Source: Closterium sp. NIES-65
Taxonomy: Eukaryota > Streptophyta > Zygnematophyceae > Desmidiales > Closteriaceae
Assembly: GCA_948144175.1 (NCBI GenBank)
Contig: CANXME010002275.1
Span: 5,271,001 to 5,335,000, forward strand
DNA length: 64,000 nt
Reading direction: 5' to 3'
Shown: piece after piece, positions 7,385 to 53,419 of the stretch
How positions within the stretch are numbered: the stretch's first letter is position 1
How the letters are laid out: the number at the start of each line of letters is the position of its first letter
Notes under the pieces: generated by a model
Database searches by the model: none
Told to the model about the DNA's origin: nothing
Seen by the model: the letters and a program-made list of their open reading frames with translations, nothing else
Translations under genes and position numbers: made by a program

Positions 7385-10300
7385 ATGTGGGGTCCCGTGT
7401 TTCCCGCCGTCATTTTAGGAGGCGCCGTCTTTTACGTAGTTAAGCGGCTCGCCAGGCCGCGAAAGGCGCTGAGTCTTGAATGGGAGACTGGTCGGCGGAA
7501 AGCGCGGCAGCCGCACAAGAAGCCTCCCTCGTTCTACGTGAGTGTTCCTTTAGAAAATCGGCGACTTCTTTGATAACTGGTCCGTCAACTGGTCCGTCAG
7601 TTCGTCCGCCACGTCGTCCGTCAGTCTGTCCGTCACGTCGTTCGTCAGAGTCCGTCAGTGTCCGTCAAGTAGTCTGTCAGTCAGTACGATTGTCAAGCAG
7701 TAGGCAGAAATCACGCCAGCCGTACACGTCACCTTTCCGCCCCCCCTCTGTCCTTCCGTCTGTCAGTTCGTCCGTTCGCCCGTCCGTTCCTCGCCGAACA
7801 CCCTGACCGCCCATTCCTCGATTTCCCCCCCTTCGTCTTCCCTCCGTCAGCACCCATTTCTACGGATCCATCAAACTAGTGATCCATACCCATTCTTTTG
7901 TCGTCTAGTCGAATCAAGAAACCATCCGTTCCCATTAAACGGAGTGACTCTGTGAACTAAATCAACTCACCAACGTGGAGCTGAGCTTTGAGGCGCCTCG
8001 AAAGTCGTCTAAATCAACTCAAGAACCTGGAGCTGAGCTGAGCCATTTTCAGAACATAGCTTTCCACACGCCCACGTGCTGAGCTGAGCTGAACGTGCTG
8101 CTTCTGATTCACACGGATGCCCACTGAATTTGCGTGGGGTGGAGCGGAGCTGACTTCCGAGTCAGACTCGAAAGGCATCGCACACCTTGGCTTTATCTCA
8201 AAAACACTGAGTGAATCTGCGTGAATTGAAGGAGCTGCTCACCAGCGAGTGTTCGTTACAAACAAAACAACACTCCCGCCCGCCCGTCTCATGCCTTTGC
8301 AGCATCGTCTCCCTGCTCCTTTTATTGGAACGGCACTCCTTTCCAGGCTGCGCATGACATTTCTTCAGCTGAGGAGTATTTCCATCAACTCACGGGGAGT
8401 CGAGCTCTTTACCAAAGAGTGGCTGCCCGGTGATGGACGGTTGAGAGGCGTGCTGTGGTGCTGCTCTGCCTTTTCATGCCCCTGCTTTTCCCTCCCACAG
8501 GCCGCACAAGGCGTGGCTTCATCCGAGGAATATTTTATCAACTCACGGGGCGTCGAGTTGTTTACCAAGGAGTGGCTGCCCAGTGACGGACGATTGAGGG
8601 GCGTGGTGCTGTTCTGCCATGGGTACGGGGAGACATGCACGTACATCTTTGAAGGTGGGAAATGGGTATGGATGTAGGGGGTGGGTGTGTGATCGTGTGC
8701 GTGTGGGTTGACAATGGTGGGGCACCGCAAGCCATTGAGAAGCGTGGTGCTGTTCTGCCATGGGTACGGGGAGACCTGCACATACATCTTTAAACGTATG
8801 GGTGGGTGCGGATGTTATCTGGGCCGTATGGATATCCAGGCAGCAGCAGGCTACGCACTGCTAGGAGTGGACCATGAAGGCCACGGGCTATCAGCTGGTC
8901 ACCACGGGCTATCAGCTGGTCACCACGGGCTATCAGCTGGTCGCCACGGGCTATCAGCTGGTCGCCACGGGCTATCAGCTGGTCGCCACGGGCTATCAGC
9001 TGGTCGCCACGGGCTATCAGCTGGTCGCCACGGGCTATCAGCTGGTCGCCTCGCCACGGGCTATCAGCTGGTACGCACTCCTATCTAACCCCCCCTCCCA
9101 CCTCCTCTCCCCTTCCAACCAATCCATCTGTTCCTCGCGTCCTTCTCGCCCTTCTCCTCCCACCAGACGTGGCAGTGATGCTGGCAGCAGCAGGCTACGC
9201 GCTGGTGGGAGTGGACTACGAGGGCCACGGGCTATCAGCCGGACGGCACGGGTACATCCGCAGCTTCACTCGCCTGGCAGACGACGTGATTGAGTTCGCC
9301 AACAGGTTAAGAGGTACGCAGAGAGTTGAGTGCGGTGCTGGGGAGAGGATTAAGTGTGGTGTTCGAGGAAGGAAGGGAGAGAGCAAGGGCCACGGGTTAG
9401 CTGACAGCCGGACGGCACGGGTACATCCGCAGCTTCACCCGCCTGGCAGGCGATGTGATTGAGTTTGCTGATCGGCTGAGAGGTAGGTGGAGGAGTTCAG
9501 TGCGGTGTTGGGGGGAGGGAAGGGGGAAAACAAGGAGCATGAGTTATCAGCGGACGGCACGGGTACATCCGCAGCTTCACCCGCCTGGCGGACGATGTCA
9601 TTGAGTTCACTAATCGTCTCAGAGGTAGGCAGAGGAGTTCAGTGCGGTGGAAGGGGTTGTATGCATGTGTGCTGGTCGCCACGGGTACATCCGCAGCTTC
9701 ACCCGCCTGGCAGACGATGTGATTGAGTTTGCCAACCTGTTCAGAGGTATGCAGAAGGGTTAAGCTGCCACTTCCTTCCTAAGCCACTTCCCTTGGGTTT
9801 CACCAATCTTAGATTCGTCAGAGTGTTCTAAAGGCCTCTGTTTCCTTCCCACCACCCAGTCTCCCCCATTTGCCTCCTCCTTTCCCCCACATTCGTTTCC
9901 CCCCTCATTCGTTTCCCCCCTAGCAAGCCCTAGGTTCGCCCATCTGCCGTTTTTCCTGTATGGCGAATTTGTGGGAGGGGCCATGGCGATTCATTTTTTT
10001 CTAGTCGACCCAAAGCACGCTTCCTCCTTCCCCACCCCTCAATCTCTCCCTTCCCACTTTCCTCCCCCCAGGAAATCCTAGGTTCGCCCAACTGCCGTTT
10101 TTCCTCTATGGGGAGTCCATGGGAGGGGCCATGGCGATTTGTGTTCTTAGAGTTGACTACTCAAAACATGTCTCCTCTTTTACCACACACCCCCTTCCCC
10201 CCGTCCCCACCAGCAAACCCTAGATTCTCCCATCTGCCGTTTTTCCTGTATGGGGAGTCCATGGGAGGGGCGATGGCGATTCAAGTGGCAAGGAGGGACC

Positions 10301-13079
10301 CCACTTCTTGGAATGGAGCAGTGCTGGTGGCACCCATGTGCAAGGTCGGTCCAGTGCGGTGTAGTGTGGTTATGAGTGGTGCAGGCAGGTTGGTGTTGAA
10401 CGACTGTGTTGTGCTCCGTGGCGAGTCAGGATCCCGCCCCTTGGAGCGGAGCAGTGCTGGTGGGGCCCATGTGCAAGGTCTGTACCAGTGATCTGTGCAG
10501 TGCGGTGTAGCGAGGTTATGAATGGTGCACAGGCGTCGTGTTGTGTGTGCTGTCTTGTGCTGTGCTGGCTACAGGGAGTCCATGGGAAGGTGGATGGCGA
10601 TTCTAGTGGCGAGGAGGAAGAGGGGGTGCTGCCGTTCCATGGGGTCCACCAGGAACGTTCTGTCCTCTCTCTCTCGTCTCTCCTTCGTCTCTCCCTCTCC
10701 TCCCACCCCGCACTCGTCTCCCCCTCCCAGATGGCGCAAGAAATGACACCCCCAGCACCAGCCATTTTCGTTCTGAAATGCCTATCATACATCTTCCCCA
10801 CCTGGAAGCTCGTGCCTGTCAGCTCCAACTCTTTTCCACCCTCCCTTATCCACTCCTCTCCCTCCTCCCCTCCCATATGGCTCAAGAAATGACCCCTCCA
10901 GCACCAGTCATCTTCGTTCTCAAATGCCTATCATACATCTTCCGCACCTGGAAGCTCGTGCCTGTCAGCGCCAACCCTCCCCCCCTCTTATCTTATCCCC
11001 TCCTCTCCCTCTCTCTCCCTCCCAGATGGCCCAAGAAATGACCCCCCCAGCACCAGTGATCTTCGTTCTCAGATGCCTCCATACATCTTCCTCCCCTCCT
11101 CTCTTTCTCTCTCCCCCGCTTCTCTCTTTCTCCCCCCCCAATCCACTCCTGTACCTCTTTCCTTCTCAGATGGCGCAAGAAATGACCCCCCCAGCACCAG
11201 TCATCTTCGTTCTCAAGTGCCTCTCATACATCTTTCCCACCTGGAAGCTTGTGCCTGTCAGCGCCAACCCTGACAACTGCTTTCAGGTGAATGCAACAGA
11301 GAACGTGACAACTACAATCCTATTATATTATCGTTATTAATAATACGACTGTTATTCTTATTATCGTTATCATTGCTACCACTATTATTATTAGTATACT
11401 TGTAAGTTGTCCTGAAGGTGATTGCGTGAGCGTGATGATTTGTGATTCCTATGTGTGTTTCCTATGCTGGATCATGCGTGCATGCCTGTTGGTCTGTCAT
11501 GCTTGCACGCCCACCCACCCGTGCCCTTGTTTGTTTCACACCTGGGCAGGTGCCAGAGAAGCGGGAGAGGGCAGAGAAGCATCTTTTTGCACATTGTGCA
11601 TGCTGCATTGAAGCCTTTTATGCCTTCTCAAGACTCACCATGTGTTGCTGTGTGTGTGCACACCCGCTTGTGTGCACGCCTGGGCAGGTGCCGGAGAAGA
11701 GGGAGAGGGTGGAGAATCATCCCTTTGCACATCACGCACCTGCGTGTATCTATACCGTTTCAAGACTCTCCGTCTGCATCATTCCTGCTTGTGTTCCTGT
11801 ATGTGCCTGCACGCTTGTGCAGGTGCCAGAGAAGAGGGAGAGGGCTGAGAAGCACCCCTTTGCATATCAGGACAAGCCCCGCCTGGGCACGGCGCTGCAG
11901 CTGCTGCGAGTCACCCAAGACATTGGCGCGCACATGGAGGAGGTGAGAGTGAGGGGTGCAAGTTTGCATACATGCATGCGTGTCTGGGTTGTCGGGTGGG
12001 GCGCCTTGGCACGGTGCTGCAGCTGCTGCGGATCGCCCAAGACACTGGCGCACACATGGCGGAGGTGGGTGAGTGTCTGTGTCAGTGTCTGTGTGCCGCC
12101 CAAGACACGGGCGCTCACATGGCGGAGGTGGGTGCACACAGACACGAGGTCCGCCACTCACCCACCTCCGCCACGTGGTATGACCTCGTGTCTGTGTGCA
12201 CTTCATGGTATTTTTGAGACGTCTCAAAAACAACCTCGCTACACATGTATGACCTCGTGTCTGTGTGCACTTCATGGTATTGTCCTTTGTATGCAAGGGC
12301 GGAGAACCACCCTAACATATGTTACCAGTATTTTTTTTTTTCCTCCACGCCAGCAGTGCCGACAAGGAGATGACGATGTACGAGGGTGCCGGCACGCCCT
12401 CACATGCTGTGCTGTTGGTACCCCACCTCACCTCTCGTCACCGCACTGCATTCTCTCCCTTCTCCAGGTCACCGTGCCTCTCCTGATTCTCCACGGGGCA
12501 AAGGACGTGGAGACCGATCCAGCAGCCAGCCAGGAGCTGGTGGGGTGCACACCGCACTTAAACCCATCCCACCCCATCCCACACCCCTCCAGGTGACAGT
12601 CCCTCTGGTCATCCTGCACGGGGCAAAGGACGTGGTGACGGATCCAGCAGCCAGCCAGGAACTGATGGGGTGCATGCATCTTAAGTCCTTTCTACCCACC
12701 TCACCCCACATTACTGTACTCCACTCCTCACCTCCAGGTCACCGTCCCCCTCCTGATTCTCCACGGGGCCAAGGACATGGTTACGGACCCAGCAGCCAGC
12801 CAGGAGCTCTTCATCCGAGCCAGCAGTGCCGATAAGGAGATCAAAATCTACGAGGGGTGCTGGCATGCCCTCACATGCGGTGAGCCTGATGACGTCATCG
12901 CCAGGGTGGTCGGGGATATTATTGCGTGGCTCAATGCCAGGAGCCTGCCGCCCGGTTCTGCGCCGGCCGGTGGTGTGGTGGATGGTACTGCGCCGCCCGG
13001 GGTGGTTAAGGAGGGTGGTGGAGGGGAGGTGGGGGATGCTACTGCGAGTGATGAGATGTCGAGTACGGTTACCAGTTAA
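7385..13079 (+). CDS. monoacylglycerol lipase-like serine hydrolase with N-terminal membrane anchor
   Basis: Seven exons with consistent phases: 7385-7537, 8501-8654, 9167-9313, 10214-10344, 11170-11286, 11823-11942, 12738-13079, giving about 387 residues. Exon 1 encodes one hydrophobic segment (FPAVILGGAVFYVV) and basic residues; its assignment rests only on phase and position. Exon 2 has the oxyanion motif HGYGE. Exon 4 has the nucleophile elbow GESMGG. Exon 7 has the acid region (HGAKDMVTDP) and the catalytic His (CWHALT). The order and spacing match plant monoacylglycerol lipases and caffeoylshikimate esterase, which cleave glycerol or shikimate esters; the exact substrate is open. Each exon has partial decayed copies beside it, so other splice forms are possible. 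Confidence 0.82.
7576..7770 (+). repeat. degenerate GTCCGTCA short tandem repeat
   Basis: Many imperfect copies of an 8-10 bp unit (GTCCGTCAGT and variants) in intron 1 of the lipase gene. No regular array or coding potential. Confidence 0.6.
7950..8036. repeat. GAGGCGCCTC palindrome between direct repeats
   Basis: TTTGAGGCGCCTCGAAA at about 7987-8003, flanked by CTAAATCAACTCA-type copies of about 30 bp ending in TGGAGCTGAGC. Confidence 0.9.
8881..9072 (+). repeat. 20-bp minisatellite grown from exon 3 coding sequence
   Basis: About nine copies of CACGGGCTATCAGCTGGTCG. The unit is a variant of the genuine exon 3 segment at about 9220-9245 that encodes GHGLSAGR, so the array appears to have expanded from a partial exon copy. 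Confidence 0.85.
12211..12280. repeat. TTTTTGAGACGTCTCAAAAA palindrome between 34-bp direct repeats
   Basis: The palindrome is at 12211-12230. The 34 bp before it (12178-12211) recur identically at 12247-12280. Between them lie the palindrome and the tail CAACCTCGCTACACAT. It is the cleanest example of the family and lies in the last intron of the lipase gene. Confidence 0.95.
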
Positions 13080-13690
13080 GTGGTAACCAGCAGATTAGAA
13101 GAATAAGCAGCTGTAACAAGTACAGCAGCAGGCAGAAGTTGTGGGAAGAGTCGATTGGTCACTTTTACCAATAGTACACTTGCGGTATTTTGAGTGTATA
13201 ATATAACAGGTACACTGCAATCCTCCCTCAAACTCTCAGTATTGTCTACACGGCAAAAAGAAATAACATTAATTATACGAGTACCACCTGGTACAACACT
13301 GTTGTCAAGCCTCATCTAGAACAAATAATACCGTATCATCTGATGGATCAACATACGCACAACAAATATGGAGAAAACAAAGAACCTCTACCGGATTGCT
13401 AGGAAAAGAACGTGTTGCTTCTTTGATCCTGGGTCGAACGAAACATATACCGTACAATACGCATTGGTTAGTTGCTAAAACCTAGACGGCTTGCCGCCAA
13501 GGAACAACTTTTCAAGCAATGCTGCTGGTGGCGTTGCTAGGAACAGCGGGAGAGGCAACGTCTCATGCGGTAACTCCTGGACAAGGGGAAGAAACAGCGG
13601 AACAAGTCGGGGAGAGGAGTGTCAGAGGGGGGGAATAGATTGTGCTTGTGCCTTTGCTTTTTGGAAGTTTGGCTATCCTTACTTGATCAT
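13080..13690. other. intergenic, lipase 3' flank
   Basis: Region between the convergent lipase and LRR genes. AT-richer in its first 400 bp with no recognisable gene. From about 13690 it grades into degenerate copies of the LRR gene 3' end. Confidence 0.5.
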
Positions 13691-14163
13691 AAAAGGCAGC
13701 AGGGACGCTGCAACGAGGAGGAACAAGAGTGTGGGAGGCGTGCGGGGGAGAGAGAGGAGGAATTCGGGCTCATGAGCTAAAGACACCTTAAATTCATACC
13801 TGTGGTCACAAGAGCGGAACAAGCAGCAGGAAAGCTGCAACGTGGAGACGGGTGTAGACAGTGAGTTTTTGAGACGTCTCAACTGTGAACAGTGGAACTC
13901 ACTTTCTACAAGTGGAACAAGCACGTGTAGAGAGGGGGTTTTTGAGACGTCTCGAAGACTCACTCTCTACAAGTGGAACAAGCAGCAGGAAGCTGCAACG
14001 AGGAGTCGGAGCAGGAAGGGGAGTGGAGGAGGGGACTCGAGTTTAATTCAGAGTTGCCTTTTGAGTTTTGAGTCGACTCAAAAGCCACCTCGTTACAATG
14101 GAGGGGAGTCAGAGGAGGGAGCTTCAACCGCCAATCTAAGGCACCTTAAGTTCATACCTTTGG
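13690..14163 (-). repeat. echo copies of the LRR gene 3' end
   Basis: Four degenerate copies of the last 30-60 bases of the LRR coding region and its first 3' UTR bases lie at about 13697-13725, 13775-13850, 13900-13930 and 13975-14005. Each resembles the true end at 14164-14200: a CTGCTGCYTGTTCC-like stretch, and in one case the stop and the GTATGAAYTTAAGGTG sequence. Palindromes of the TTTTGAG...CTCAAAA type separate several of them. Confidence 0.7.
13810..14110. repeat. three GAG...CTC palindromes among repeated LRR 3'-end copies
   Basis: Palindromes at 13866-13880 and 13939-13953 (centre ACGT) and 14066-14083 (centre TCGA). The first two are each followed by ACTTTCTACAAGTGG or CTCTCTACAAGTGG, then a fresh copy of the upstream sequence (GTGGAACAAGCA...). 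Confidence 0.9.
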
Positions 14164-17100
14164 TCACAACAGTGGCACAGGCAGCAAGAGAGCCACTAGG
14201 AGGAGGAAAAGGCGGAACAATAGGGCAGGAGGAGAGTGAAAATGGGCAGAAAAGGCCGAGCGAGAGGGAGGAGGTGGGCTGGGAGGAGACGTCGAAGGGG
14301 GGGTGGTGGCAGCGGGAGGCGGTGACTGGGGAGCGGGATTAGGAAGTGGTGGTGCTGCTGGTGGTGCAGGGGATGATGTTGGGGATGGTGGCGGGGATTT
14401 TCCCCCAGTTGTGGGGGAGTTTGGTGGGGTGGTTGCGGAGGGTGCTGGTGCTGGTGTTGGCGCAGGGGGGGTGTGGTCGATGCCTGGGAGCAAGAGGACA
14501 AGTGGGAAAAGGGAGACATACGGGAAGTGACTGGGTTATGAGTGGGGAAGAGAGGGAGGGAAGGAAGGGGGTGTGGCTGCGGATGGTGCTGGTGCTGGTG
14601 TTGGCGCAAGGGGGGTGTGGTCGATGCTTGGAAGTGATAAGGAAAGGGAGGGGAGAGGAAAAACGAGTGGGAAAGAGAGGGAGGGAGGGGCAGATGAGTG
14701 GGTAGAGAGATGACATGGGGACGGTGTGACTGAGGCAGGTGCCTTGTGAGGAAAAAGACTAGAGCAACCGCTTTCCCCCAGACCAAAGCACTCCCCTTCT
14801 TCCCCCAGACCACTCACTTGGATCGTTGCAGTAGCGGCAGGAGGCACAGAAATCACAGTAGAGAGATGACATGGGAACAATAGCACTGGGTCAGGTGGTG
14901 CTTCCTAAGGTGCTGCAGGTGTATCCAAGAAGCAACTCCCGCACCACCCAAAGCACTCACTGGGGTCATTGCAGTAGCGGCAGAAGGAGGAGCAGAATTC
15001 GCAGTAGAGGGAAGACAGGGGGACAGTAGAAGGGCAGGTGCCTTCCAGCGGGCAGAGGAGACCAGTGGCTGATATGTCGAGGAGTGTGAGCGAGGAGAGC
15101 TGAGCTAGAGCGGCTGGGAGAGTCCCCGAGAAAGGATTGGAATGCAGGTCCCTGGGGTAGAGGGAGGTGAGGAAGAGGGAAAAAGTGGGGGCAGAGGAGG
15201 CCAGTGGCTGATATGTCGAGGAGTGTGAGCGAGGAGAGCTGGGCTAGAGCGGCTGGGAGAGTCCCCGAGAAAGGATTGGAGTGCAGGTCCCTGGGGTAGA
15301 GGAACAAATAGAGAGGGATAACGGAAGAGAGGGGAAAAGGAAAAGGGCATGAGTAAGCGCACTGGTTGATTGATGCGTGGAGGGGAAGGTTTTGATTGAG
15401 ACGTCTCAAAACCCAATAGTATCACGTGGATACGTGGAGGGGAAGGGAAATGAGAGAGGGGAGCTGGGCAAGAGCGGTTGGGAGAAAGCCTAAGAGCAAC
15501 GGAGGTGCCAAAAGGATTCTGTATTCTGGCCGGTTTTTGAAGACGAATATGGAAAACCCCTCATAAGTGAGACTTATCATTTGATGTTCGCCAATACAGG
15601 ATGATATGACAATATGGGTTTATCTTATTTTTAACTCGACTCAAAAACCTCTTTTTGAGTCGACAAAAAAATCCTTACAAGTAATCTCTATCACGCGGTG
15701 TTGGCCCGTACAGGACGATATGACGGATATGGGGTGCAAAAGCAGATCAAATTAAATCGTACGTACAGCTTCTCAAGAAAGTTGAGATTGCCGATGGATG
15801 GTGGGAGGGAGCCTGTGAAGCTGTTGGATGAGAGATTGCTGTGAAGGGGGGACAGAAAATCAGGGAAAACTTGTGGGTCAGGTGGGTGGTGGGATACTGG
15901 AAGGATCGCCAATGGATGGTGGGAGGGTGGCTGAAAAGATGTTGGATGAGAGATTGCTGTGAGGGGAAGACGGGGTGGGGAGAACAAGTAAAGGGAGAGA
16001 GGGGCGGAAGGGAAGGTGTATGTAAGACCATCAGGTAGCCACGAACTGGTGGTGGGAGGGAGGGTGTGTGAGAAGCTGTTGGAAGGGCGATAGCTGAGAG
16101 GAGCAGAAGGGAAGTAGGGGGCAAGGGGAGGGTGGGGCGATAGGGAAGGCTGGGCGAACAGGAGTGAGAGCGATGGTAATGGGGTGTGCATGAGAAGAGG
16201 TGATGGAACAAGGCATGAGAAGAGGTGATGGAACAAGGCATGAGAAGAGGTGATGGAACAAGGCATGAGAAGAGGTGATGGAACAAGGCATGATGTAAAG
16301 GCATGAGCAGCAGTGTGAGCTTACAGCAGCTATAGAGATGCGAGGGAGGCAAAAGGCGTCTGGCAGGGAGGAGGTGAGGCGGATGGATGTGCTTGTGCTT
16401 GGAATAGGCAATAATGATGTACAGGAAAAGAAAGCAGGCGTGAGGCATGAGCAGCAGTGCGAGCGCGAGCTTACAGCAGCTGCAGAGACGTGAGAGAGTC
16501 AAAGTCGTGTGGGAGTGAGGAGGTGAGGCGATTGGGGTGTGCTTGGGATGGGAAGGTATATGTGAAGTGGAAGGAATGAGACACGCCAGTCAAGGCATGG
16601 CAGGGCTTACAGCAGCTGCAGAGTCGCGAGGGAGTCAAAGGCGTCTGGGAGGGAGGAGGTGAGGCTGATGCGTGTGCATTCATGCATATGTGCATTCATG
16701 CATATGTGCATTCATGCATATGTGCATTCATGCATATGTGCATTCATGCATATGTGCATTCATGCATATGTGCATTCATGCATATGTGCATTCATGCATA
16801 TGTGCATTCATGCATATGTGCATTCATGCATATGTGCATTCATGCATATGTGCATTCATGCATATGTGCATTCATGCATATGTGCATTCATGCATATGTG
16901 CATTCATGCATATGTGCATTCATGCATATGTGCATTCATGCATATGTGCATTCATGCATATGTGCATTCATGCATATGTGCATTCATGCATATGTGCGGT
17001 GATGTAGAAAGCATGAGCAGCAGGGGAGCAGGGCAGGGCTTACAGCAGCTGCAGAGGAGCGAGGGAGTCGAAGGCGTCTGGGAGAGAGGAGGTGAGGCGA

Positions 17101-20100
17101 TTGCGAGACAGATCTCTGGTGTATTGGAGGGAAGGGGGGTGCAAGGGGAGGGGGAGGGTGTTGCAGAGGGGATGTAATTGGCTAGACAAAGTAAGAATGG
17201 GAGTCGAAGGCGTCTGGGAGAGAGGAGGTGAGGCGGTTGCAAGAAAGGTCTCTGGTGTATGGGGAGGGGGGGAGAGGGGGGTTGCAAAGGAGTGGGGAAC
17301 ATTCACAGAGGTGAGGCGGTTGCGAGACAGGTCTCTCTTGTATAAGGAGGGGGAGAGGGGGGGTTGCAAGGGGAGGGGTAGGTGCAAGGGGAGGGGGAGG
17401 TGCAAGGGGAGGGGGAGGTGCAAGGGGAGGGGGAAGTGCAAGGGGAGGGGGAAGTGCAAGGGGAGGGGGAAGTGCAAGGGGAGGGGGAAGTGCAAGGGGA
17501 GGGGGAGAGGGTGGAAGGAGAGAGGAGGGGGTTGCAAGAGGGGAGAAAAGCATTGAAGTAGGAATCGAAACAGAAGGACATAAAGAGAATGGGGTGCGAA
17601 GGGGACTACAGGGTTAATGGAAGGGGACAAAACACATAGGAATTTTTTGAGACGTCTCAGAACACTCCTTTTTTCACGTGGAAGGGGAAAAAACACATAG
17701 GAAATTACACTTTGCCTGACGTCAAATTCTCGAATCCTCAAGCGTCCGCTTACCGGATAAATGAAAAAAATCAATACTTTGTGTGGTGGTGTGTCTGCTT
17801 ACAGAATCTCGAGATCCCTAAGCTGAAACCAAGTTGGCGGGATGGAGCCCGTTATGTTGTTATTGGATAGCTCACTGACGGGGATGAGATGGCATAGAGG
17901 AACAGCAGGAGGAGGGATGAGAGATTGTGAGTGCTAGGTGGGAAAGATAATGTCTCTTTTCTACAAACAGAGTTTGCAGCTGATCAGGACTTTTGAGATG
18001 TCTCCAAAAGTGAGAGTTCTCCAAAAGTACCATCAATCAGCGTTTGCAGCTGATCAGAAATTTTGAGCCGTTTTAAAAGCGAGAGATTTTATATTTGCAA
18101 CAAACACAGTCTGCAGCTGAAACTGAACTGAGTTTTGAGGCGTCTCTCAAAACTCGGTTTTCATCACGTGCAGTATTTTTCTACAAACGCAGCTCGAAGC
18201 TGAAACGGAACTGCCAAACGCACATGCAATGGCATAGATACATGCATGCATGTGCGTGCGATGGCATGCATGCATACACGTGTGCATGCATGGCATGGCA
18301 TACATACATGGAGGTGAGGTTGGTGAGCAACGGGGACACACATGTGAGATGGCTTACAGGCTATGGTGTGAGGCTTACAGGAGTACATGCATGTGGGGAG
18401 TACAGGCTTACAGGCTTACAGGGGTGACGCATGTGTGCATGGCATGGCATAGCATGGAAACATACAGACACACACACACATGGAATGAATGCATACATGG
18501 AGGTGAGGTTGGTGAGCAAGAGGTGAGACGGCATAAGTACATGCATGCATGTATGTAGGAACGACACAAGCATGTGGCATGGCATGGCATGAATGCCTAC
18601 ATGGAAGTGAGGTTGGTGAGCAGAGACACGGAGAGGGGGAGGGAGTTGAAGAGCTGGTTGCTGGGCAGGGATCTGCACAGACAGGGATGGGCATGGGTAG
18701 GCAGGTGTGGGCATGGGTAGGCAGGTGTGGGCATGGGTAGGCTGGTGTGGGCATGGGTAGGCAGGTGTGGGCATGGGTAGGCTGGTGTGGGCATGGGTAG
18801 GCTGGTGTGGGCATGGGTAGGCAGGTGTGGGCAGGAGTGGGCACTCATATTAAGAACACCACATGGAGGGAGTTGAAGAGCTGGTTACTGGGCACACAGG
18901 GGCACACAGGGGCACACAGGGGCACACAGGGGCACACAGGGGCACACAGGGGCACACAGGGGCACACAGGGGCACACAGGGGCACACAGGGGCACACAGG
19001 GGCACACAGGGGCACACAGGGGCACACAGGGGCACACAGGGGCACACAGGGGCACACAGGGGCACACAGGGGCACACAGGGGCACACAGGGGCACACAGG
19101 GGCACACAGGGGCACACAGGGGCACACAGGGGCACACAGGGGCACACAGGGGCACACAGGGGCACACAGGGGCACACAGGGGTGGGCATGGGTAGGCATG
19201 GGTAGGCAGGGGTAGGCAGGTGTGTGCATGAGTAGGTACTAGGTAGGCAGGGACGAACCGCAGAGCACCACAAAGCACAACAGGGCACCACAGCACACCA
19301 CAGAGCACTCCAGCGCACCACGGAGTATCACCGCTCCCCACACCGCCACTCACATCTGCTGCAGGCTGGCTCTTCGGTGCTGTGGAATAAAGCGGACAAA
19401 GAGCACTACACAGAGCAGAGCACCGCACAACACCGCAGAGTAGCACAGCGTACCACCAAACACCGCACCGCCACTCACATCTGCTGCAGGCTCTTCAGGG
19501 CGCTGATCCCCTCGGGAAGATACCCGGAAATGTTGCCAGCTGGCATGTTGCTGACGTCAGCACAGCGGGTGGGGAAGAGGGGGAGCATAACACGGCATCA
19601 ACAGGCATATCAGTGTTTGTGTGCCTGCCTGCCACGTCAGCCATTGTGTGCCGCATCAGCATCTGTTGGAGATATTATGCCCTGGATGATGGCGGGATCA
19701 TACCATAACGGACCGTGGCAGACAGAGCATATTCATTATAACGTATTTCGGGAGTCACAGGTCCGAATGAGACAGACATATGCGTCACATAGACGTCTTG
19801 AATAGCTATTGAGTCGACTCAAAAACATAGACGTCTTGAATAGGGAGCCTGAGATTCACGCGTGGGAGAGCATGTCTCAATTCGGAAACTCACACGATTA
19901 CCCTGGTGGTTATCACCAGCCCAGTGACTACTACGAGAGTATTTTATCAGTAAACCTACTGGAGGGCATCGCACTCACATGTAGAAAGTGAATTTTACAC
20001 TGGAGCTCTCTCACTGGAGAGGAGACGTGTATGTTTTTTGAGGGCTCTCACTGGAGAGGAGACGTGTATGTTTTTTGAGGGCTCTCACTGGAGAGGAGAC

Positions 20101-28902: not shown

Positions 28903-31900
28903 TATCCTCCTCTTTCACCTCCCCTCGCTGCTGCACCTCTCTCACCTCCTCTCGCCCTTGCACCTGCACACAAGCCAAGTCTGCCACAACAGTAGCCTTA
29001 TGAGGCGCCTCAACAGTCACGTCTTCGCGCCCTTGCCCCGGCCCACAGGCCAGTTCAGTCACCAGCATTGCCAGCGCTCTCACTTCACTACTGCTCGTGC
29101 TCAGCTTTCTAGATCCATCTTCCGGACCTGCATCTGCTGCAGCTGACGCTCCCAGCTTTGTAGTTCCGCCATCCCCTGCTGCTAATCCTCCTCCTACAGC
29201 CTCCTCCCCCTTGCTCTCCCCTGCTTCTGATCCTTCCCCAGCCTCTGTTGTTGTTTCCTTCCCCAGACCACTCTCCATATCTCCTGCAAGAAAGCTGCCT
29301 TCAATATCTGAACCGTTTTCTAGGATTTTCAAAACTGCTGCTGATCCTCCCCTTGCTCCGCCCTCCACCCCATTTTCTAATTCGTCTGCTTTTTTGCTGC
29401 CGTTTATCAGTAGAACACCTTCTGCTGGTTCTTCTGCTGTGCCGCTGCCCATTCCCCGTGCTTTTCCATGCTCTGGAATAGAGGCTGTTGCACTGGCAGC
29501 GGCAGTTGCAACAGTGGTTGTCGCAATGGCTGTGGAACCAGCTGCAGCAGTAGTGACACTTTTCCCTCCAGCATCCACCTTTCCTGTGCTCGCCCTCCCC
29601 TTCTTCCCACCTGCCTTCACCCCACTCACCTTCTCTTTCTCTTTCTCCCTCTCCTTCTCCTTCTCTTTCTTCTTCTCCTTCACCTTCTCTTTCACCTCCT
29701 TTTGCTTCTTAGGCTTGCGCGGGCTCTTGATGCCGTTCTCCCTCACACTACCTTGTAATGCATCTGCCGTGAGAGGGGATAAAGCTCTTGTCTCTCTACC
29801 GCCTTGTAGCGCATATGCCTCTAGCTGTCTCACTTCATGGCCTTGTAATGCATCAGCCTCTAGCGGAGCACCAGCTTCCCCTGCCTCTTCCCCTGCCCCT
29901 GCCTCTGCCCCCTCCTTTGCCCCTGCCTCTGCCCCTTCCTCTGCCCCTGCCGCTGCCCCTTCCTTTGTCCCTTCCTCTGCACCTTCCTCTGCCCCTTCCT
30001 CTGCCCCTTCCTCTGCCCCTGCCTCTGCCCCTGCCTCTGCCCCAGCCTCTTCCCCTGCCTCTGCCCCTGCCTCTGCCCTTCCCCCTGCACCTCCCTTAGC
30101 TTTTTCTATGCTTGGGCGGTCAGCGCACCCTCCTTGCTCCACATTTCTTTGATCTTCAACAAAAACAGACCCTTCTGTCGTTCCCTCCTCTCCATCCCCC
30201 TCCTCTCCTTTCCCCTCCTCTCCTTTCCCCTTCCCTCTGTTCCCCTCCTCTTCTTTCCCGTCCTCTCCTTTCCTCTTCCCTCTTTTCCCCTCCTCTTCTT
30301 TCTCCTCTTCTTCTTTCCCCTCCTCTCTTTTCCCTTCCCCTCCTTTCCCCTCCCCTCTTTTCCCCTCCTCTCCTTTCCCCACCTCTCCATCAATCTTCTT
30401 CCCTTCTCCCGTGTCCTTCCTCCTCTCCTCTTCCTCCCCTCCGCTTCCATCCATTCCACTCATCTCTGAAAAGAGAAACGTCCGGTCCTCTGGCGGTTTT
30501 AGAGGCTCCATTTCATCCATCTCTGAAAAGAGAAATTCCCGGTCCTCAGGAGCTCCCATGAAAATGTTGAACACGCTGCTGCGACTGGGAGTGCCGCTGC
30601 TGCTGCGGCTGTAAGTGCTGCTGGTGCTGCTGCTGCGGCTGTGAGTGCTGCTGGTATTGCCGGTGGTGGTCCTGCTGCTGCTGGTGCTGCTGCAGGAGAA
30701 AGAGGAGGCTGAAGGAGAGGAGTGGAAAACCTTATCAGCACTGTTGGGGCGAGGAGAATCGCAATTGCCCCAAGACCTGGAATCACCACTGCTGTCACGC
30801 TCTGCACTAGCTGCAGCAGCAGACACGTCTAAGTCAGCAGCAGAGTCTGCAGAAGAATCAGCATCAGCACTAGCAGAACCAGTACCAGCGACAACAGCAG
30901 TAGCACCAGCAGCACCAGTATCAGCAGAATCAGCACCAGCACCACGAGCAGCGCCTTTCGGCTTCCCAGTTTTCTTGTGTGTAGCATTGGCCAGGTGTTG
31001 TTGCCTGGGCTGCCTCCCGCCTGCTGTGCGCTCCACAGCAGCCAAACCAGCAGCAGGAGAGGAAGCGGGAGAGTGGTGAGGGGGGCGAGACGACGAGGAG
31101 GAGGAAGAGGAGGAAAGCGGCGAAGAGGAGAAGTTGGAAGCTTCCCCGGAAATTACCAGCTGTAGAGGCGCCTGCTGTCAGAAGGAGGACAAGGTTGGTT
31201 GGGGGCAGATCACAAGGAGAGAGCGAGAAAGAAAAAAACGAACTGAGAAAGTTCCGAGGCCGACAAATCTGGGACAGATCACGAGGAAAGATGGGAACAG
31301 CAATCGGTGAGAACGTTTTGGGTCGACTCAGAACAGCAATCGGTGAGAAAGGGGCCCAAGAGGACACAGACGGCACAGTGGCAAGACATGGAGGAAAGAA
31401 GGGAATTGAACACCAATCTGGCAAGAAATAACTGGACAGACTAACCCTAAACCTGACACAAAAACATGGAAGCTAAAACCCTAAACCTGACCCAAGAAAA
31501 CGAAGCGAAAACATAAAGCTGAACCGAGACTTAGAAGCCAAAGCCTTAAACCAGACCTGCAATTTGGAAGCCGGGAACCCAAACCTGACCTGAGGCACGA
31601 AACCGAAAGACCAATATTCAAAAGCTGCTGAAAGTTGGAATCCAAAACCCAGAACCTGAAACCTGGAACTCGCAGCATGACACCCTTCTTTCAGGAAAAG
31701 ACAATGGGTTTGGAGTGAGCTTTACCTTCCTTTTAGTAGCCTTTCCTTTTGAGAATTCTCAAAACACAATGGGTTTGGAGTGGGCTTTACCTTCTTTTTA
31801 GCCTTCCCTTTTCCTCGCTTCGACTGAGGAAGTGTGGTTTGCTTGCCCTTTTCCTCCCCAGATGAGATATCTCTCAGCATTCCCAGAAATCTCTGTTTGT

Positions 31901-34900
31901 CGTTGCCCTCCCCCACATCACAGCAACCCTCCTCCTCCCAACCACACTCAGTCACACCCGCTCCTTCTAGTTTCACCCTTGTGACATTGAGACGAGGTGA
32001 ATCCTGAGTCAGCTCAAAAGCACCCTCTTCATAATCACATTCCGTCACACTCACTCCTCTTCTCACACCAGCCCTTCCTCCCAGTCCAAGCCCCCCCAGA
32101 CCCATCGGAGTCAGAGTCGGAATATCCCCATTATTAACAGTCCCGTTTTTGGAGGCAGTTCTCTTCTCGAAAGCAGCTGCAGTATCGTCCTCTGTGTCCT
32201 TTAGTGCCTGTATTTGTAGGCTACTATCATCAAATGGTTCACTATACGCCACCTCACTATCACCATAAACAGTTTCACCAGAAGCAGCATCATCAGAACC
32301 CAAACTGACAGCAGCACCAGCACCATCACCAGAACCATCATCAGCATCAGCAGCAGCAGCAGCATCAGCAGCACCCAAAACAGAATCTCTGTCTTTGCTG
32401 TTCATCTGCTTCTTCTTTTTCAAACCCCCCTTCCCCTTCCCCACCCCCTTCCCCTTTCCTGCCCCCTTCCCCTTCTCCACTCCCTTTGATTTCCCCGTCA
32501 GCTTATCTTTGGCCTTTCCCACGTCTGCTTCCTTCCCACACCCTTCCGAGATGGACATCCCTCCATCAACACTGCTCATGCTGCAAAAACTACTGTTCAT
32601 GATGCTGGCAGCTGCGGTAACGGGTGGCAAGGGCTCGTTTTCTTCTGCCGCAATGATGCACTGCAGCACCCTGGCCGGCGGGAAGGCCTCATCCAATGAG
32701 GTGACAGCACCATAAAAACCAGCATTCCCGTTCCCACTCCCACTTTCATTCCCACTCCCACTCCTACTCCCACTCTCATTCCTGTTCTCATTCTCACTCC
32801 CGCATACATTCTCAGTATCATTCACCTTCTTCCACTCACTCTCATCCTCTTCCCTCTCACTCCTCTCCCGCCTGCTTCCACCATCCTCCCCACAACCCTT
32901 CCCCTTACTCCCGTCCGCCTTTTCCACTCCTCTCCCCACTCCATCCTCCTCCCCTCTTCCCTTTCCTCCTTTCCCAGCCCTTGCCAACAGCGGCAGCAGC
33001 CCCCCATCTCCTCCCCCCATCCCTCTCGGTCCCCCCATCCTTGGCCCTCCCCCCATGTCTACCCCTCCCCTCTTCCCTGCCCCTCTTCCCCCCAACGGCA
33101 GCAGCCCGCCGACTGCTCTTTCCCCTCTCCCTGCTTCCCCATCTCCTCCTCCCCCTCTCCCTGCACCTCCCCCCAGCCCTGCCCCTTCCCCTATCCCTGC
33201 CCCACCCCCCAGCCCTGCACCTCCCCCCATCCCTCCCAGCAGTGCTGCCCCCCGCGAGCACAGCAGCTGGAAAAACATCTCCTCGTGGCTTGCACGCCAG
33301 CTGTCGCTCAACGATTGAATGCGGGCAATGCTGGGAGGAGGGGCGTGCACAGTAAACTGCTCACTGCCAGCAGCTGTAGCAGTGGTGGCTGTAGCAGTGG
33401 CGGCTGTAGCAGTGGCGGCTGTAGCGCTCACGGCAGTCTGAACGCTGCTGGCACCTTGTCCCTCTTTCTCTCCCTTGCCTGCTTTCGCACCCGCTTTCAC
33501 TGCTGCACTGCCCCTGTCGCCCTCCTTATTCCCCTTTCCCCCCTTTTTAAGAACGCCCTTTCTTTTAGTCACTGCTGCAGCTTTCGTGCCTTTCTTCCCA
33601 GCGCCCTTGCCTTTAGCAACGTCAGCTTCAGTCACATCTCCAATTGCCACGTCAGCAACAGCCACATCGCCATCGACAACAGCCACATCAGCACCAGATA
33701 CATCAGCAGCAGCCGCTGCTGCTACATCCACTGCAAACGAAACAGGCCCTGCTACATCCGGTCCTATAACTGCTGCTACAGACCCTGCTACATCCTGTCC
33801 TATACCTGCTGCTACAGGCCCTGCTACATCCTGTCCTATACCTGCTGCTACAGACCCTGCTACATCCTGTCCTATACCTGCTGCTACAGACCCTGCTACA
33901 TCCTGTCCTATACCTGCTGCTACATGCGCACCTACACGCCCTACCACATCCGCTGCTACAGCTGTTGCTACAGATGATGATACAGGCGATGCTACAGATG
34001 ATGCTGCAGATGATGCTACAGATGGTGCTGCAGATGATGCTACATATGGTGCTGCAGATGATGCTACAGATGATGCTACAGATGGTGCTGCAGATGATGC
34101 TACAGATGGTGCTGCAGATGATGCTACAGATGGTGCTACAGATGATGCTACAGATGGTGCTACAGATGATGCTACAGATGGTGCTACAGATGGTGCTACA
34201 GATGGTGCTGCCTCTGTTTCTGCTACAGGCGATGCAACAGACGCTGCCACTCCTGCTGCTGCTGCAGATGATGCTACAGATGATGCTGCCACCGGTTCTA
34301 TACAAGGCAACTCAGGGGCTGCATCACATGCTGCTTGCGAATTCCCAGTCTCCTGCACAGTTTCATAGCTATCCCTTGACAGAACTGCCTGGTTGCTGCT
34401 ACTAAGTGGGGGAGTCATAGCTTCAATAGCTCCAAGTGCAGGTCTGTGCAGTGTGGGGTGTTCTTGAGGCTCCTCGAGAACAGATGTACAAGCCGTAGCT
34501 TCAAGTGCAGGTGCCTGCGGTGTGCCAGGTGCACACGGTTCTTGAGGCACCTCGAAAATTGTCTCCTCGCACAGTAGGGTTTGGTTGTCGCTACCAGATG
34601 AAAGGGCTATGGCTTCAAGTGCAGGTCTCCGCAGTGTAAGAGATGCTGATGATTCATTGTCACACCCTGCTGCTGGCTCTGCTAGAGATGATGCAAAAGC
34701 CTCTGGTACAGGCTCTGCTACAGATGCTGCTACAGGCTCTGCTGCTACAGCTGTTGCTACAGGTGTGGCTACGGTCTCTGCTACAGCTTTTACTACAGTC
34801 TCCACTACAGGTGCTGCTTCAGATACTGCTATGGATGCTCCCACACGTCCTGACTCATTGTCACCCTTCACATGATCAAATCTTGCACTTGCCTCCACAC

Positions 34901-37853
34901 CATCTGCCCCTCTCTCCTCCGATGCAGCTCCATACCCCCCTTCCCCTTTCCCCTCCCCCTCCCTCACCACTTCCCTCTCCCCCTCCCTCTCCCCCTCCCT
35001 CTCTCCCTCCCTCTCCCCCTCCCCCTCTCCCTCCTCCTCCCTTTCCACTTCCCTCTCCCCCTCCGTCCCCACTTCCCTCCACACTCTCTCCCCGGCCTTC
35101 CCACCTGCCCTCTCCTCCCTCCTCTTCATCCTCTCCTCCCTCCTCTGCTTCTCCTTTCTCGCTCTCTCCTCCCTTTTCTTCCCCTCCTTTATAAGCATCT
35201 CCTGCCGCTTCATTATAATCTCCTGCTTCGCCAGTGCTGCTTCCAGCTCACAAGCCATCTGTTTTTTCAACCTGCCCGCATCAAACCTCTCCTCCAAACC
35301 TGCACCTTCCACTCCCGATAAAGCAGAACCCAATGGCCCTGCTACACGCTCCGCAGCACCCAAACCCACGATTTTAGCCCCATTCCCTTCCCTTTCCTTT
35401 CTCTTAACATATCCACTCTCCTCCTCCTCATGACTCTCTTCTTCCCTCCATATGCCCACAAGAGCAGATGCAGGCGGCCCTGCTACACACTCCACTCCAC
35501 TCACACTAGCTCTCTTCACTCCCCTGTTCTCCTTGCCTCTCCCACACTCCTCCTCCCCCCTCTCCACCTCCCTGCTTTCCTCCTCCCACCTTTCCTCCGC
35601 CCTCCACATACCCGATAAAGCAGCGGCAGGAGGCCCTGCAACACACTCCACCGCACCAAACCCCACCCTCTTCCCCTTCCCCTTCTGCTTCTGCTTCACC
35701 CCTTCCTCCTTCCCCCTTTCCTCCTCCTTCCCCTCCTCTTCCTTGCCTCTTCCGTCCTTACCCCTTCCCTCCTCCTTGCCCATCCCCGCCTTCCCAGCAG
35801 CAGCACCACCACCAGGCATCAGGGACAAGGAGAGGAGTTTAGGGGGCCGCAGGAACCTAGGGGCGTGGAGGGAGCTCCTAGAGAAGCCCAGGAAGGGAAG
35901 CACGGAGCTTGGCGCCTCTGTAACCATAGCTTGGTTACCAGCAGCACTCGGGTTACCACCCGTTTCTCCAGCCGTAAGAACAGACCCAACTGCACCGAAC
36001 GAAGAAGGCGCAGCAGCAGGAACAGTCAATCCAGCGGCCGAAAGTATCCTCTCATCCCCTGCTGCACCCCTTGATCGGTCCCTATCTAAGCCCTGCGAGC
36101 CCTGTGAGCCCTGTGAGACCTGTGGGTGGGGGAACACCTGTGAAGGCCTGGGGTTGGTGGTTGGGATGTGGTTCGAGCTGGTTAGCTGGGAAGTAGAGAG
36201 GAAGCTTCTTTCTTGAGGCAACAACACGTACCGGCTCTCCTGAAACTGGGCGGAAGCTTCTTGCTGCTGCTGCCTGTGCCGAGGATTTTCTTTCTCCTGC
36301 CCAGAGTGCGTGTTGGGCAGCTTCGAAAAGAGTTTGGCCATGAGCTGGTGTTTGTGGCTGTGGCGAGCGGTGGGGGTGCGTGGGGGGTTCTGTGCAGTGC
36401 TGTGGGGGATGGGCGGGTCTGTTATGAATGCTGCAGTGTGGAAAGAGGAAGCGGGTGGAGAAAGGTTGAAGTGGTGGTGTGATGAGACAGCGGAAGAGGA
36501 GGAGAGGGAAGGGTAGGATCTTCTTGATGCTGGTAGTGCTGATGCTGATGCTAGTGGTGATGATGATTGCAGTGGTGAGTCTGCAGTGGCGGTCCCTCTG
36601 CTACCAGCAGTGCCACTGACGCCAGAATTTTTCTCCGGGCAGCTCAAAGGAATTGATGCTAAGCTGAGATTCTCCAGGTAGCTCGCCTCCCAGATCTTTT
36701 CAATATCTGCCCGGTGTGTCGGGAGCATTCCTCCTGCCCGAGAAAACGCCACGTGGACCGGTCTGACTGCCCGGCCATCCGCAGTCATCACACCCCACGC
36801 TTGGGCAGCATTCCGGGCAGCATTGAAAGCCGTTCGCGGGGGCGCAAGCTGCCCGGAAAGCTCAAAAGAAACAGGAGAATCGCCAGGTTGAATCTGATCA
36901 CAACTCTGCAGCCAGTCCCGTACACTATCCACCACGCCAGGTGCTTTAGCTTCTAACTCCTGTGCGTCTTTAATCTCCCCGCATACCCTTAACCATTCTC
37001 CCTGCTCCCCCATATGACCAAATTCATGCTCCACCTGCTGCTGCTGATCCTGAACTTCTGAAACTGCACAGGTCACTAGTTTCCACGAAATTGCGTCAGG
37101 AGCTGCATCCGTCACTGTAGCGAAGGCTCCAAGAACCCTCACTACAAGAACATCCCCTGGGAGGGCTGCTGCTCCACTGATTTCCACTGCCTGCATCGGC
37201 GCTCCTGATTGGACGGCTTGATATGGAGAAACTCCGTTGCCAGTAACAGGGTAACCAAAAGAGGGGTGGGTAGGATTAGTGATGTTACTGAAATAGGAAT
37301 CATTAGAGTCTCGAACAAACCCGTTGCTGTCGTCGAAACTGCTCCTAGAAAGGTCACTGCTCCTGTTCTTACTGTTGCTGCTTCTGCTGTTGTTGCTGCT
37401 GCTGCTGACAAAACTGCTGCTGCTGCCGTAACTGCTGCTCCCACTGCTGCTGCTGATCTGAACCCACGTCTGAGGAAGGAACCCGATATTGTATGGTGCG
37501 TTATGGGAATAGTGAGACGGCCTGCCATCGTGTGCAATTATCCGCAATGGAGTGAAATCCTCGTCAGCTGCAGGCTCCACCCGTAACCATGAGCCACGTG
37601 GCGTGGTAACCACCATGTGTAGCAAAGGCGCACTGGAAGGCTCTGACCAATCGCATTCTGTCACGCTGGAAGCGTATCCCGCAACTGGTGACAGATACGA
37701 AGCTGCCAAGTCGGTCCGGCCACTGACGTGGCATCTTGGGGAGGCGTATAGCGGGACGTGGTGCCACGTGGACACGCCTCGTCCGTCGTTATCAACAGTA
37801 ATGGCACGCCACCGGAGGCTACCGGGCTTCCCGAACTGAATGATTCTTCCCAT
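27380..37853 (-). CDS. giant low-complexity protein with degenerate inorganic-pyrophosphatase domain (two-exon model)
   Basis: Exon 1 (37853 to about 31790) starts at a genuine ATG. Its first ~370 residues follow eukaryotic soluble pyrophosphatase: [59 protein letters not shown]. The catalytic residues are mostly lost: EIP is TTP, NYG is NIG, and the DNDPID aspartates are replaced (SGAPMQA). The rest is disordered, with Ser/Ala/Val repeats, charged coiled-coil-like stretches and Lys-rich ends. The ORF 31045-27380 has no ATG near its start (the first codon is TTG) and begins with similar basic text, so I treat it as exon 2. The donor AAGAAG/GTAAAG at about 31790 fits; the acceptor near 31000 is uncertain. 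Function unknown; a non-enzymatic scaffold is a guess. Confidence 0.6.
31046..31721 (-). other. probable intron or spacer with degenerate telomere-like repeats
   Basis: Contains AACCCTAAACCTGACMC motifs at about 31440-31500 and weaker versions to 31600, plus a GGTCGACTC palindrome inside duplicated AACAGCAATCGGTGAGAA at 31294-31350. No ORF. Confidence 0.5.
31294..31350. repeat. GGTCGACTC palindrome between 18-bp direct repeats
   Basis: AACAGCAATCGGTGAGAA lies on both sides of CGTTTTGGGTCGACTCAG. The palindrome has one mismatch. Confidence 0.88.
31700..31812. repeat. TTTTGAGAATTCTCAAAA palindrome between duplicated donor sites
   Basis: The palindrome is at 31747-31764. The ~45 bp on each side (31702-31746 and 31765-31811) are copies that contain an exon end and the GTAAAG donor of the giant-protein gene on the minus strand. 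Confidence 0.92.
33770..34285 (-). repeat. in-frame tandem repeats in the giant protein gene
   Basis: A 39-bp unit (about four to five copies, 33775-33935, encoding [12 protein letters not shown]) is followed by a 12-15 bp unit (33970-34280, encoding VASSVAPS). Both remain in frame; the complementary strand is also open. Confidence 0.85.
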
Positions 37854-39150: not shown

Positions 39151-39164
39151 ATATGAGGGTTTGG

Positions 39165-39870
39165 GAGGAGGGGGGGCGGGGGGGGGTAGATGTGGCATAC
39201 GAAGGAGAGCGGGGCCCCAGCTCTCCCCACAAATTCCCCACCACCCTGTCCCTCTCATTTCGCTCATTTACAAAAGAACACTCACTCGCTCTTGAAGGAG
39301 CAGTACATGTGGCGTACCAGAACATCAAAGCCTGAAATCCCCCGAGTTTCTGCCAAACACCCTTCCCAAATCGCCGCAGACCACCCTCAATCACCCACTT
39401 CTCTCTCCCTCCACTCAGCCCCACTTCTTCCTGGAACATGCTTCCTCCCACTGTTTTTGAGGCGCCTCAAAAATAAATTTCCTGCAACATACTTCCCCAC
39501 ACTTGATTGAGGCGTGGATGCAGCACACAAAGGATAGCAAGGCGCGGAGCCCGTACTCTCCCCAAAACACCACCCCAGTCTACCCTCAACCGGCCGCACC
39601 TCTGCCCCTCCCCTCCCCCTCCCCTGCCGTTCTTCACCTCATTCCCTCAACCACTTTCTCGCACTAGCTGGAGCGGTAGATGTGGTGCACGAAAGACAAC
39701 CATGCCTAGAAAGCTCCTATTATCCACCAAGTCTCCCCCCACCCACACTTCCCTGATCAGCCCTCAGCACACTCTCCCCCTCGTATCCCCCTTCATTTTT
39801 GGAAAAGCATACTCAAACTTGATAAAGCAGTAGAAGTGGCCCACAAACGACAGCAGGACGCAGAATGCCC
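39165..39870 (-). repeat. five echo copies of the TMN gene 3' end
   Basis: Degenerate copies of the last ~45-60 coding bases (true copy 39938-40000, encoding ASLSFVRHIYRSIKCE-stop) lie at about 39168-39215, 39298-39335, 39500-39550, 39664-39712 and 39818-39868. They are spaced 110-210 bp apart. They keep the core GCGGTAGATGTGGCGCACGA and decay by substitution. The 39818 copy would still read LLSFVGHFYCFIKFE. Confidence 0.85.
39425..39500. repeat. TTTTTGAGGCGCCTCAAAAA palindrome between direct repeats
   Basis: Palindrome at 39454-39473, between TTCCTGGAACATGCTTCC and TTCCTGCAACATACTTCC copies of about 26 bp, amid the TMN 3' echo copies. Confidence 0.9.

Positions 39871-44278: not shown

Positions 44279-53419
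<9,141 letters not shown>

Follow-up and report, generated by a model that had tools for sequence, protein, structure and literature searches.

A 64,000-nucleotide stretch of the genome of Closterium, a genus of desmid algae within the Zygnematophyceae, carries copies of a short palindrome centred on TTTTGAG-NNNN-CTCAAAA, most of them set between direct repeats of local sequence. Alignment of such sites elsewhere in the genome with unoccupied paralogs shows that the palindromes are insertions that duplicated their target, with duplications of 16, 20, 21, 28 and 60 bp. On balance, we favor a reading in which they are non-autonomous mobile DNA elements of the Closterium nuclear genome, forming one family of very small size and inserted at staggered cuts that are then filled in.

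The stretch (hereafter the window, C1977:5271001-5335000) belongs to an 874-Mb assembly of 2400 contigs. It lies within a 6.2-Mb contig that holds copia and AP2/ERF open reading frames (ORFs), and from context of this kind the palindromes appear to be located in nuclear contigs. We read 284 kb of DNA in all, comprising the window and 22 further stretches (labeled L), the latter mostly picked at listed matches to the motif; their site density does not represent the genome mean. Away from the stretch ends, this sample contains 55 intact cores of the 18-bp motif, 28 with one mismatch and 39 with two.

Intact Cores Are Flanked by Long Target Duplications

Flanking duplication was scored by local alignment, with a score of at least 12 and with copies ending and starting no more than 22 bases from the core. 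Tandem repeats abound in this genome, with arrays making up 14.7% of the sample, and arrays of at least 2.6 copies were excluded. This removed 16 intact, 11 one-mismatch and 8 two-mismatch sites, and 295 random draws were rejected. A duplication flanks 31 of the 39 remaining intact cores, 5 of 17 one-mismatch cores and 9 of 31 two-mismatch cores, against 23 of 1000 random positions, a set not restricted to introns. Two earlier random controls that included arrays (47/400, and 91/600 positions scoring at least 12 within the window alone, with tandem repeats unmasked) were inflated by satellites and are superseded by this figure. Flank duplication is thus far more frequent at intact palindromes than at random positions, contrary to the refuting outcome named with the original prediction, which was made from the window sequence; some motif sites have no visible duplication, and some are now tandem arrays.

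Of 64 duplicated sites, 34 are cores that stand alone and have no more than one mismatch, and in 31 of these 34 the gaps between core and repeat are 20 bases or fewer on each side. The duplications are 16–94 bp long with a median of 34 bp (n = 31 solitary copies), lengths above ∼60 bp being less certain because gene segments here are themselves duplicated. A predicted range of 18–47 bp is thus correct in part, since duplications exceed 47 bp and one of 60 bp is confirmed by an empty site. Target pairs of equal length are on average 96.6% identical (n = 25; 9 exact). Grouped by core, identity is 96.3% for intact cores (n = 20), 96.0% for one-mismatch cores (n = 7) and 87.6% for two-mismatch cores (n = 8); the lower value at two-mismatch cores is what shared aging of core and flank would produce.

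Empty Paralogs Carry a Single Target Copy

Since genes here contain tandemly duplicated segments, paralogs of a target can be located close by. For the 64 duplicated sites, we compared the left flank, one (or two) target copies and the right flank with all fetched DNA. A paralog spanning the site was found in 13 cases, four of which were dropped: L009:7040, which lies in a 28-bp satellite, and three sites belonging to an array in L019 that matched other palindromes. The one-copy model is best at eight of the nine informative sites (L011:9299, L012:8971, L014:5291, L015:9164, L017:727, L019:6749, L021:4183 and L022:1955).

Five alignments are clean, with target lengths of 16 bp (L015:9164), 20 bp (L012:8971), 21 bp (L022:1955), 28 bp (L021:4183) and 60 bp (L011:9299). 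At L015:9164 (44) and L021:4183 (53), the gap has exactly the combined length of the palindrome and a single target copy. It departs from that length through small local changes at three sites, L012:8971 (43 versus 46 predicted), L022:1955 (45 versus 41) and L011:9299 (74 versus 83). At L015:9164, the empty form reads ...CGGCCCAGCCCCAAGC|TCACTG, and in the filled form CGGCCCAGCCCCAAGC flanks both sides of a 28-bp palindromic insert. None of the nine informative sites is in the window, whose own copies yielded no empty site, and no homologs of the ORF at 31722-37853 were found as empty alleles.

Empty paralogs with a single target copy indicate that the palindromes inserted with a long and variable target duplication. 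They also support the proposal that the repeats are target rather than element: with same-genome paralogs as the empty sites, eight of nine fit one repeat without the palindrome, rather than both repeats.

The Family Is Abundant and Appears to Be Defined by Its Centre

A whole-assembly search of the kind suggested with the original prediction, using TTTTGAGNNNNCTCAAAA with up to two mismatches, finds 74,982 places, versus 3,589 for the reversed pattern. A motif-free scan of 264 kb recovers 52 perfect palindromes of at least 16 bp that are family members and 11 that are outside the family and are not AT repeats; three runs of a second-order Markov control gave 8 palindromes altogether. A viral or bacterial source of the motif was considered and rejected. 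In 257 Gb of prokaryote contigs, 4 stretches contain the exact TCGA 18-mer TTTTGAGTCGACTCAAAA, approximately the number expected by chance (an estimated 3.7); in an exact search of IMG/VR, this 18-mer has no match and the ACGT core TTTTGAGACGTCTCAAAA has one.

Each unit is palindromic, perfectly or nearly so, and the fullest form seen, in ACGT copies, is ∼54 bp long with the organization CACGTG-N12-core-N12'-CACGTG. The predicted 18-bp motif is present but is only the centre of this longer palindrome, whose arms are lineage-specific. The four central bases are self-complementary in 51 of 55 intact cores (TCGA 24, ACGT 14, GCGC 11, AATT 2), and the remaining four cores have TTGA, TCAA, AATC and ACAT.

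The arrangement core-N12-CACGTG occurs 923 times genome-wide (483 + 440), versus 0 in the control. Among 80 arms, taken from 100 listed matches after array neighbors had been thinned by eye, there are 51 distinct N12 sequences, the most frequent being CACTCCTTCTTT (nine times). On the right-arm strand, G makes up at most 7% at each position of these N12, position 6 is C in 91%, and position 7 is invariably T. Identical N12 recur at separate loci, defining arm lineages. Four listed places have both arms with CACGTG at each end, the two N12 being identical in three and matching at 10 of 12 positions in the fourth. The arms of the ACGT class (n = 21) match within a copy at 5.95 of 12 positions, versus 4.01 (standard deviation 0.40) when shuffled, a value reached in 0 of 2000 shuffles; for the AATT class, covariation is weak (n = 6, 17/2000 shuffles). 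TCGA copies have a common arm consensus, GAGGTGAC.

Arms are often absent from one or both sides, with 0 to ∼18 inserted bases beside the core on each side. At arm-less TCGA sides, C adjoins the core in 10 of 13 cases and may be residual arm or microhomology. Half-cores without a mirror number 23 in 264 kb, against an estimate of ∼12 expected, and an array accounts for five of them and a composite insertion for one, such that truncated cores are not in clear excess. The element appears to be defined by its centre.

Tandem arrays of the form (X-palindrome)n are present as secondary forms. However, 39 of the 55 intact cores lie outside arrays of at least 2.6 copies, and on this count a minisatellite was rejected. 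Two local structures involve half-elements. At L014:7344-7490, an array of a 20-bp unit contains a half core only (GACTTTTGAGGCACTTTT...) and ends in a degenerate GCGC core. At L016:9018-9060, a right half-element stands in tandem (TCGACTCAAAAGTCACC twice) within one insertion, as if the half had been added twice.

Search for a Partner Element

Halves of the form CACGTG-N12-TTTTGAG with a non-canonical interior occur 231 times genome-wide, versus 5 in the control; the pattern excluded the canonical mirror half and so returns non-canonical interiors only. Among the 100 listed of these 231 halves, 46 are decayed mirror halves, a single local array contributes 11, and none of the other interiors occurs in more than six places. 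One dispersed sequence, CACGTGATTGGTCGAAGGTTTTGAG[CT]GGG, present at six places (one in L005), was set aside as probably an unrelated repeat, with no mirror half nearby.

Pairs of half-cores 1–9000 bases apart that share a flanking word of at least 12 number 36 and are mostly arrays or composites. Among the others are one 6.1-kb pair in the window (16-nt match), four C6 pairs ∼2.1 kb apart (15-nt) and a 147-base pair in L020 (13-nt). The same site pair with the same spacing is found on two contigs (C309:1284574/1284698 and C763:938363/938487), which suggests duplicated or allelic regions of the assembly.

Palindromes within the Window

Palindromes were located at all 17 coordinates that had been predicted in the window, with offsets of 0–4 bases. 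The claim that most are flanked by repeats also holds, with 12 of 17 scoring at least 12 (repeats no more than 32 bases from the core). The 12 cores with an adjoining direct repeat start at 7986, 12212, 13940, 15394, 17645, 17991, 18133, 19807, 23416, 31316, 31747 and 39455.

The cleanest copy spans 12178-12280, where a core with an ACGT centre (12212-12229) and a right arm only (ACAACCTCGCTACACAT) is enclosed by target copies at 12178-12211 and 12247-12280, identical at 34 of 34 positions. The bare form is represented by an 18-bp TCGA core at 23416-23433, between 36-bp target copies at 23380-23415 and 23434-23469 (35/36 identical). Copies of the same length (31701-31736 and 31766-31801, 34/36) surround the AATT core at 31747-31764.

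Two further ACGT copies have one arm recognizable on the right. The core at 17645-17662 (one mismatch), whose right arm ends in CACG, lies between target copies at 17618-17642 and 17679-17703 (24/25), and the core at 15394-15411 (two mismatches), with a right arm ending in CACGTG, lies between copies at 15372-15389 and 15429-15446 (17/18). Target copies are identical at the TCGA cores 19807-19824 (one mismatch; 19-bp copies, 19787-19843 overall) and 31316-31333 (two mismatches; 16-bp copies, 31298-31349). They are more or less altered at the ATGT core 17991-18008 (one mismatch; 24-bp copies, 22/24, within 17964-18057), at the GCGC core 7986-8003 (two mismatches; 29-bp copies, 26/29, within 7957-8037) and at the intact GCGC core 39455-39472, where the 25-bp copies are diverged (21/25, within 39428-39503). 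An older copy at 18100-18213 has a core at 18133-18150 with two mismatches, a right arm ending in CACGTG and diverged target copies of ∼31 bp.

A double insertion occupies 13816-14005, with ACGT cores at 13867 and 13940 (two mismatches each) and arms GTGTAGA../..TCTACAA. It is enclosed by local copies at 13816-13847 and 13975-14005, with a partial third copy at 13914-13923. Duplication is weak at the intact TCGA core 14066-14083 (score 11), which is followed by GCCACCTCGTTACAATGG resembling a right arm, and at 23273-23290 (ATGT centre, one mismatch; 16 bp, score 10). Two degenerate cores at 15629 and 15653 (15629-15670) have no clear target duplication (score 4 for 15629), and none was found at 20092-20109 (score 4), where a partial core, GAGACGTCTCAAAA, precedes CGTCACTTTCTACAAGTG, which also resembles a right arm.

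Models for Insertion

In the mobile-element reading that we favor, two cuts on opposite strands of the target, ∼16–90 bp apart, would create a staggered break. The palindrome, as a duplex or as a hairpin, would bridge the gap, and fill-in would copy the overhang on both sides, producing the target duplication. A putative dimeric protein probably binds the symmetric core. Such binding would account both for the retention of an entire core in copies that have lost arms and for the self-complementary centre. If copies are made through a hairpin, the arms could change in sequence and still match each other. The direct target repeats on either side of an insert would in turn permit unequal exchange, leading to (X-palindrome)n arrays. 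A more specific form of this proposal, which we advance tentatively and with some doubt, is that the palindromes represent a new, centre-defined class of nuclear mobile element, in which a core-binding dimeric enzyme moves palindromes of at least 18 bp in hairpin or duplex form, cuts target strands tens of bases apart and restores the complementarity of the arms with every round of copying.

Several observations weigh against the mobile-element reading. With a core of 18 bp, a transposase would have few bases to recognize. Eight of the 39 intact cores outside arrays have no duplication, and decayed cores have one less often still (5/17 and 9/31). Preferred bases were looked for at 62 cut points and none is prominent. 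Arm covariation is not significant in the TCGA (n = 35, 233/2000 shuffles) and GCGC (n = 15, 1077/2000) classes. No autonomous partner or long common interior was found for the CACGTG-N12 arm type among the 100 listed of 231 halves, and no enzyme search was made. Among paralogs, L015:4611 has a spanning match only under the two-copy model and fits neither model, the paralog being 121 bp shorter versus 50 predicted for palindrome plus repeat; of the dropped sites, L009:7040 and L019:8260 are slightly better with two copies, and L019:8176 and L019:8218 are tied. Finally, copies were selected by their core, and part of the contrast between constant core and variable ends is a selection effect; the motif-free palindrome scan and the half-core count (264 kb each) give support that is independent of this selection.

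The main rival, which we judge unlikely but by some way the strongest of the alternatives, is repair capture without a transposase, in which accidental staggered breaks are filled in and an abundant palindromic fragment is captured as filler. The spectrum of duplications (16–94 bp, with no motif seen) resembles the small tandem duplications described at 3' overhangs (PMC8355091), and the arms look trimmed, like ends before joining. However, captured filler should be heterogeneous, whereas here one family occurs ∼75,000 times (no search was made for inserts of any other kind), with no clear excess of truncated cores. This model also needs a source of the fragment. The original prediction of an undescribed mini-element or a repair signature is supported as a pair, and we choose neither definitively.

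Considerably less probable is an RNA-mediated route, by which a short hairpin RNA would be reverse-transcribed at nicks in a target-primed manner, giving variable target duplications. Variable duplication length and one-armed copies such as those at 12212, 15394 and 17645 fit truncated copying. In contrast, truncation within the strong stem of the core should generate half-cores, and these show no clear excess; both arms can be missing, and neither poly-A nor another 3' tail was noticed by eye in the printed copies. A retroposon of the long or short interspersed element (LINE/SINE) type was rejected on the same two observations of tail and half-cores.

That the palindrome inserts between pre-existing tandem repeats, or induces duplication afterwards, is largely refuted and very improbable. 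The abundance of tandem repeats in the genome and the match of L015:4611 to the two-copy model alone are in its favor, but one copy fits better at eight of nine informative empty paralogs, and if palindrome and flank had been duplicated together afterwards, two palindromes should be present, while 34 of 64 duplicated sites are solitary cores with one mismatch or none.

Least probable of all is that the insertions are new introns with splice sites supplied by the target duplication: the original prediction assigned the sites to introns (an assignment that is its own alone), the duplicated target at L011:9299 appears by eye to span a splice donor, and AG|GT (AGGT/ACCT) occurs in 12 of 31 targets, slightly above 27% of random windows, but this excess is small, the target sequences point to no clear splice-site enrichment, and the added lengths of 41–83 bp in the five clean cases are short for introns. 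The donor at L011:9299 would be on the minus strand, and one target copy may keep the gene intact there, with the palindrome in an intron.

Significance and Neighboring Features

With tens of thousands of copies, and a readable duplication at most intact sampled ones, the family constitutes a natural experiment on the formation and filling of staggered breaks, in an alga whose class is frequently named as sister to land plants. If the palindromes are moved by an enzyme, a mobile unit of 18–54 bp would be strikingly small and might serve as a tool. A centre-defined element, if real, would be to our knowledge the smallest high-copy transposable unit, and would represent eukaryotic transposition with long, variable target duplications. 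If they instead reflect repair capture, they are a genome-wide record of break geometry. The palindrome also seeds (X-palindrome)n tandem arrays. Closterium strains vary widely in genome size (PMC10407611), and we speculate that the palindromes may bear on this variation.

The window begins with an open copia-type polymerase ORF (RVT_2, 2-3757), which has very many relatives in Closterium strains; its best 120 listed matches are all from Closterium. An early lead, the Toxoplasma WGAGACG promoter motif, was dropped, as the copia ORF matches Closterium. Other features are a 3046-amino acid ORF with an AP2/ERF DNA-binding domain (44279-53419, minus strand), an ORF with an acyl-CoA-binding domain (24532-25656, minus strand) and a tRNA gene (21615-21687, plus strand; Rfam). 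Segments at 15050-17234, 11535-11869 and 24389-24634 recur every ∼118–139 bp and are perhaps tandemly duplicated exons, and 16-bp and 10-bp satellites lie within gene regions at ∼16593-17040 and 18810-19259, respectively.

Comparison with Known Systems

A literature survey by title and abstract opening, with subscription papers outside its scope, found nothing describing such palindromes. The terms “MITE,” “inverted repeat,” “repetitive” and “tandem duplication” are absent from the Closterium genome paper, and the consulted sections of a Zygnema paper give percentages for miniature inverted-repeat transposable elements (MITEs) only.

The palindromes resemble MITEs and foldback class II elements in being short, non-coding and present at very high copy number, with an inverted-repeat structure and a target duplication. 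Unlike MITEs, they have a constant centre and ends that vary or are absent, and conserved outer termini were not found among these core-selected copies; the duplication varies from 16 to 94 bp rather than being constant for the family, and the bare form measures 18 bp. IS1549/IS1634 likewise have long target repeats whose length varies (8–514 bp; PMC2266710). However, these are bacterial insertion sequences with their own transposase (1500–2000 bp in the family; PMC2266710), whereas no transposase has been tied to the palindromes, for which no enzyme search was made.

Introners of Amoebophrya and Micromonas likewise combine inverted and direct repeats and have many copies in genes (PMC7789003). 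Those of Amoebophrya have direct repeats of 3–5 nt at exon/intron borders (PMC7789003), in contrast to the Closterium targets, which have no clear splice-site enrichment. Fill-in of 3' overhangs gives rise to small tandem duplications in other species, likewise of tens of base pairs (PMC8355091), but the cited sections of that paper describe no constant palindromic insert between the copies.

Organellar palindromes share the size and palindromic form of the Closterium elements. Those of Volvox are described as selfish hairpins of 10–100 nt in noncoding DNA, with nuclear copies called inert (PMC2670323), and in yeast mitochondria the GC42 cluster is a palindrome under constraint, GC clusters being associated with AG or ACT repeats (PMC4478555). 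Pairing that persists as sequence drifts, a mark of such palindromes, is seen in the arms of our ACGT class. Organellar palindromes nonetheless reside in organelle DNA and have a target repeat that is absent or of 2–3 nt, whereas the Closterium palindromes have a nuclear context and duplications of 16–94 bp. Classical MITEs, introners and organellar palindromes each miss a defining feature. Considered together, these comparisons place the Closterium palindromes with known short selfish palindromes, as a variant of these, with a substantial chance that they form a new class.

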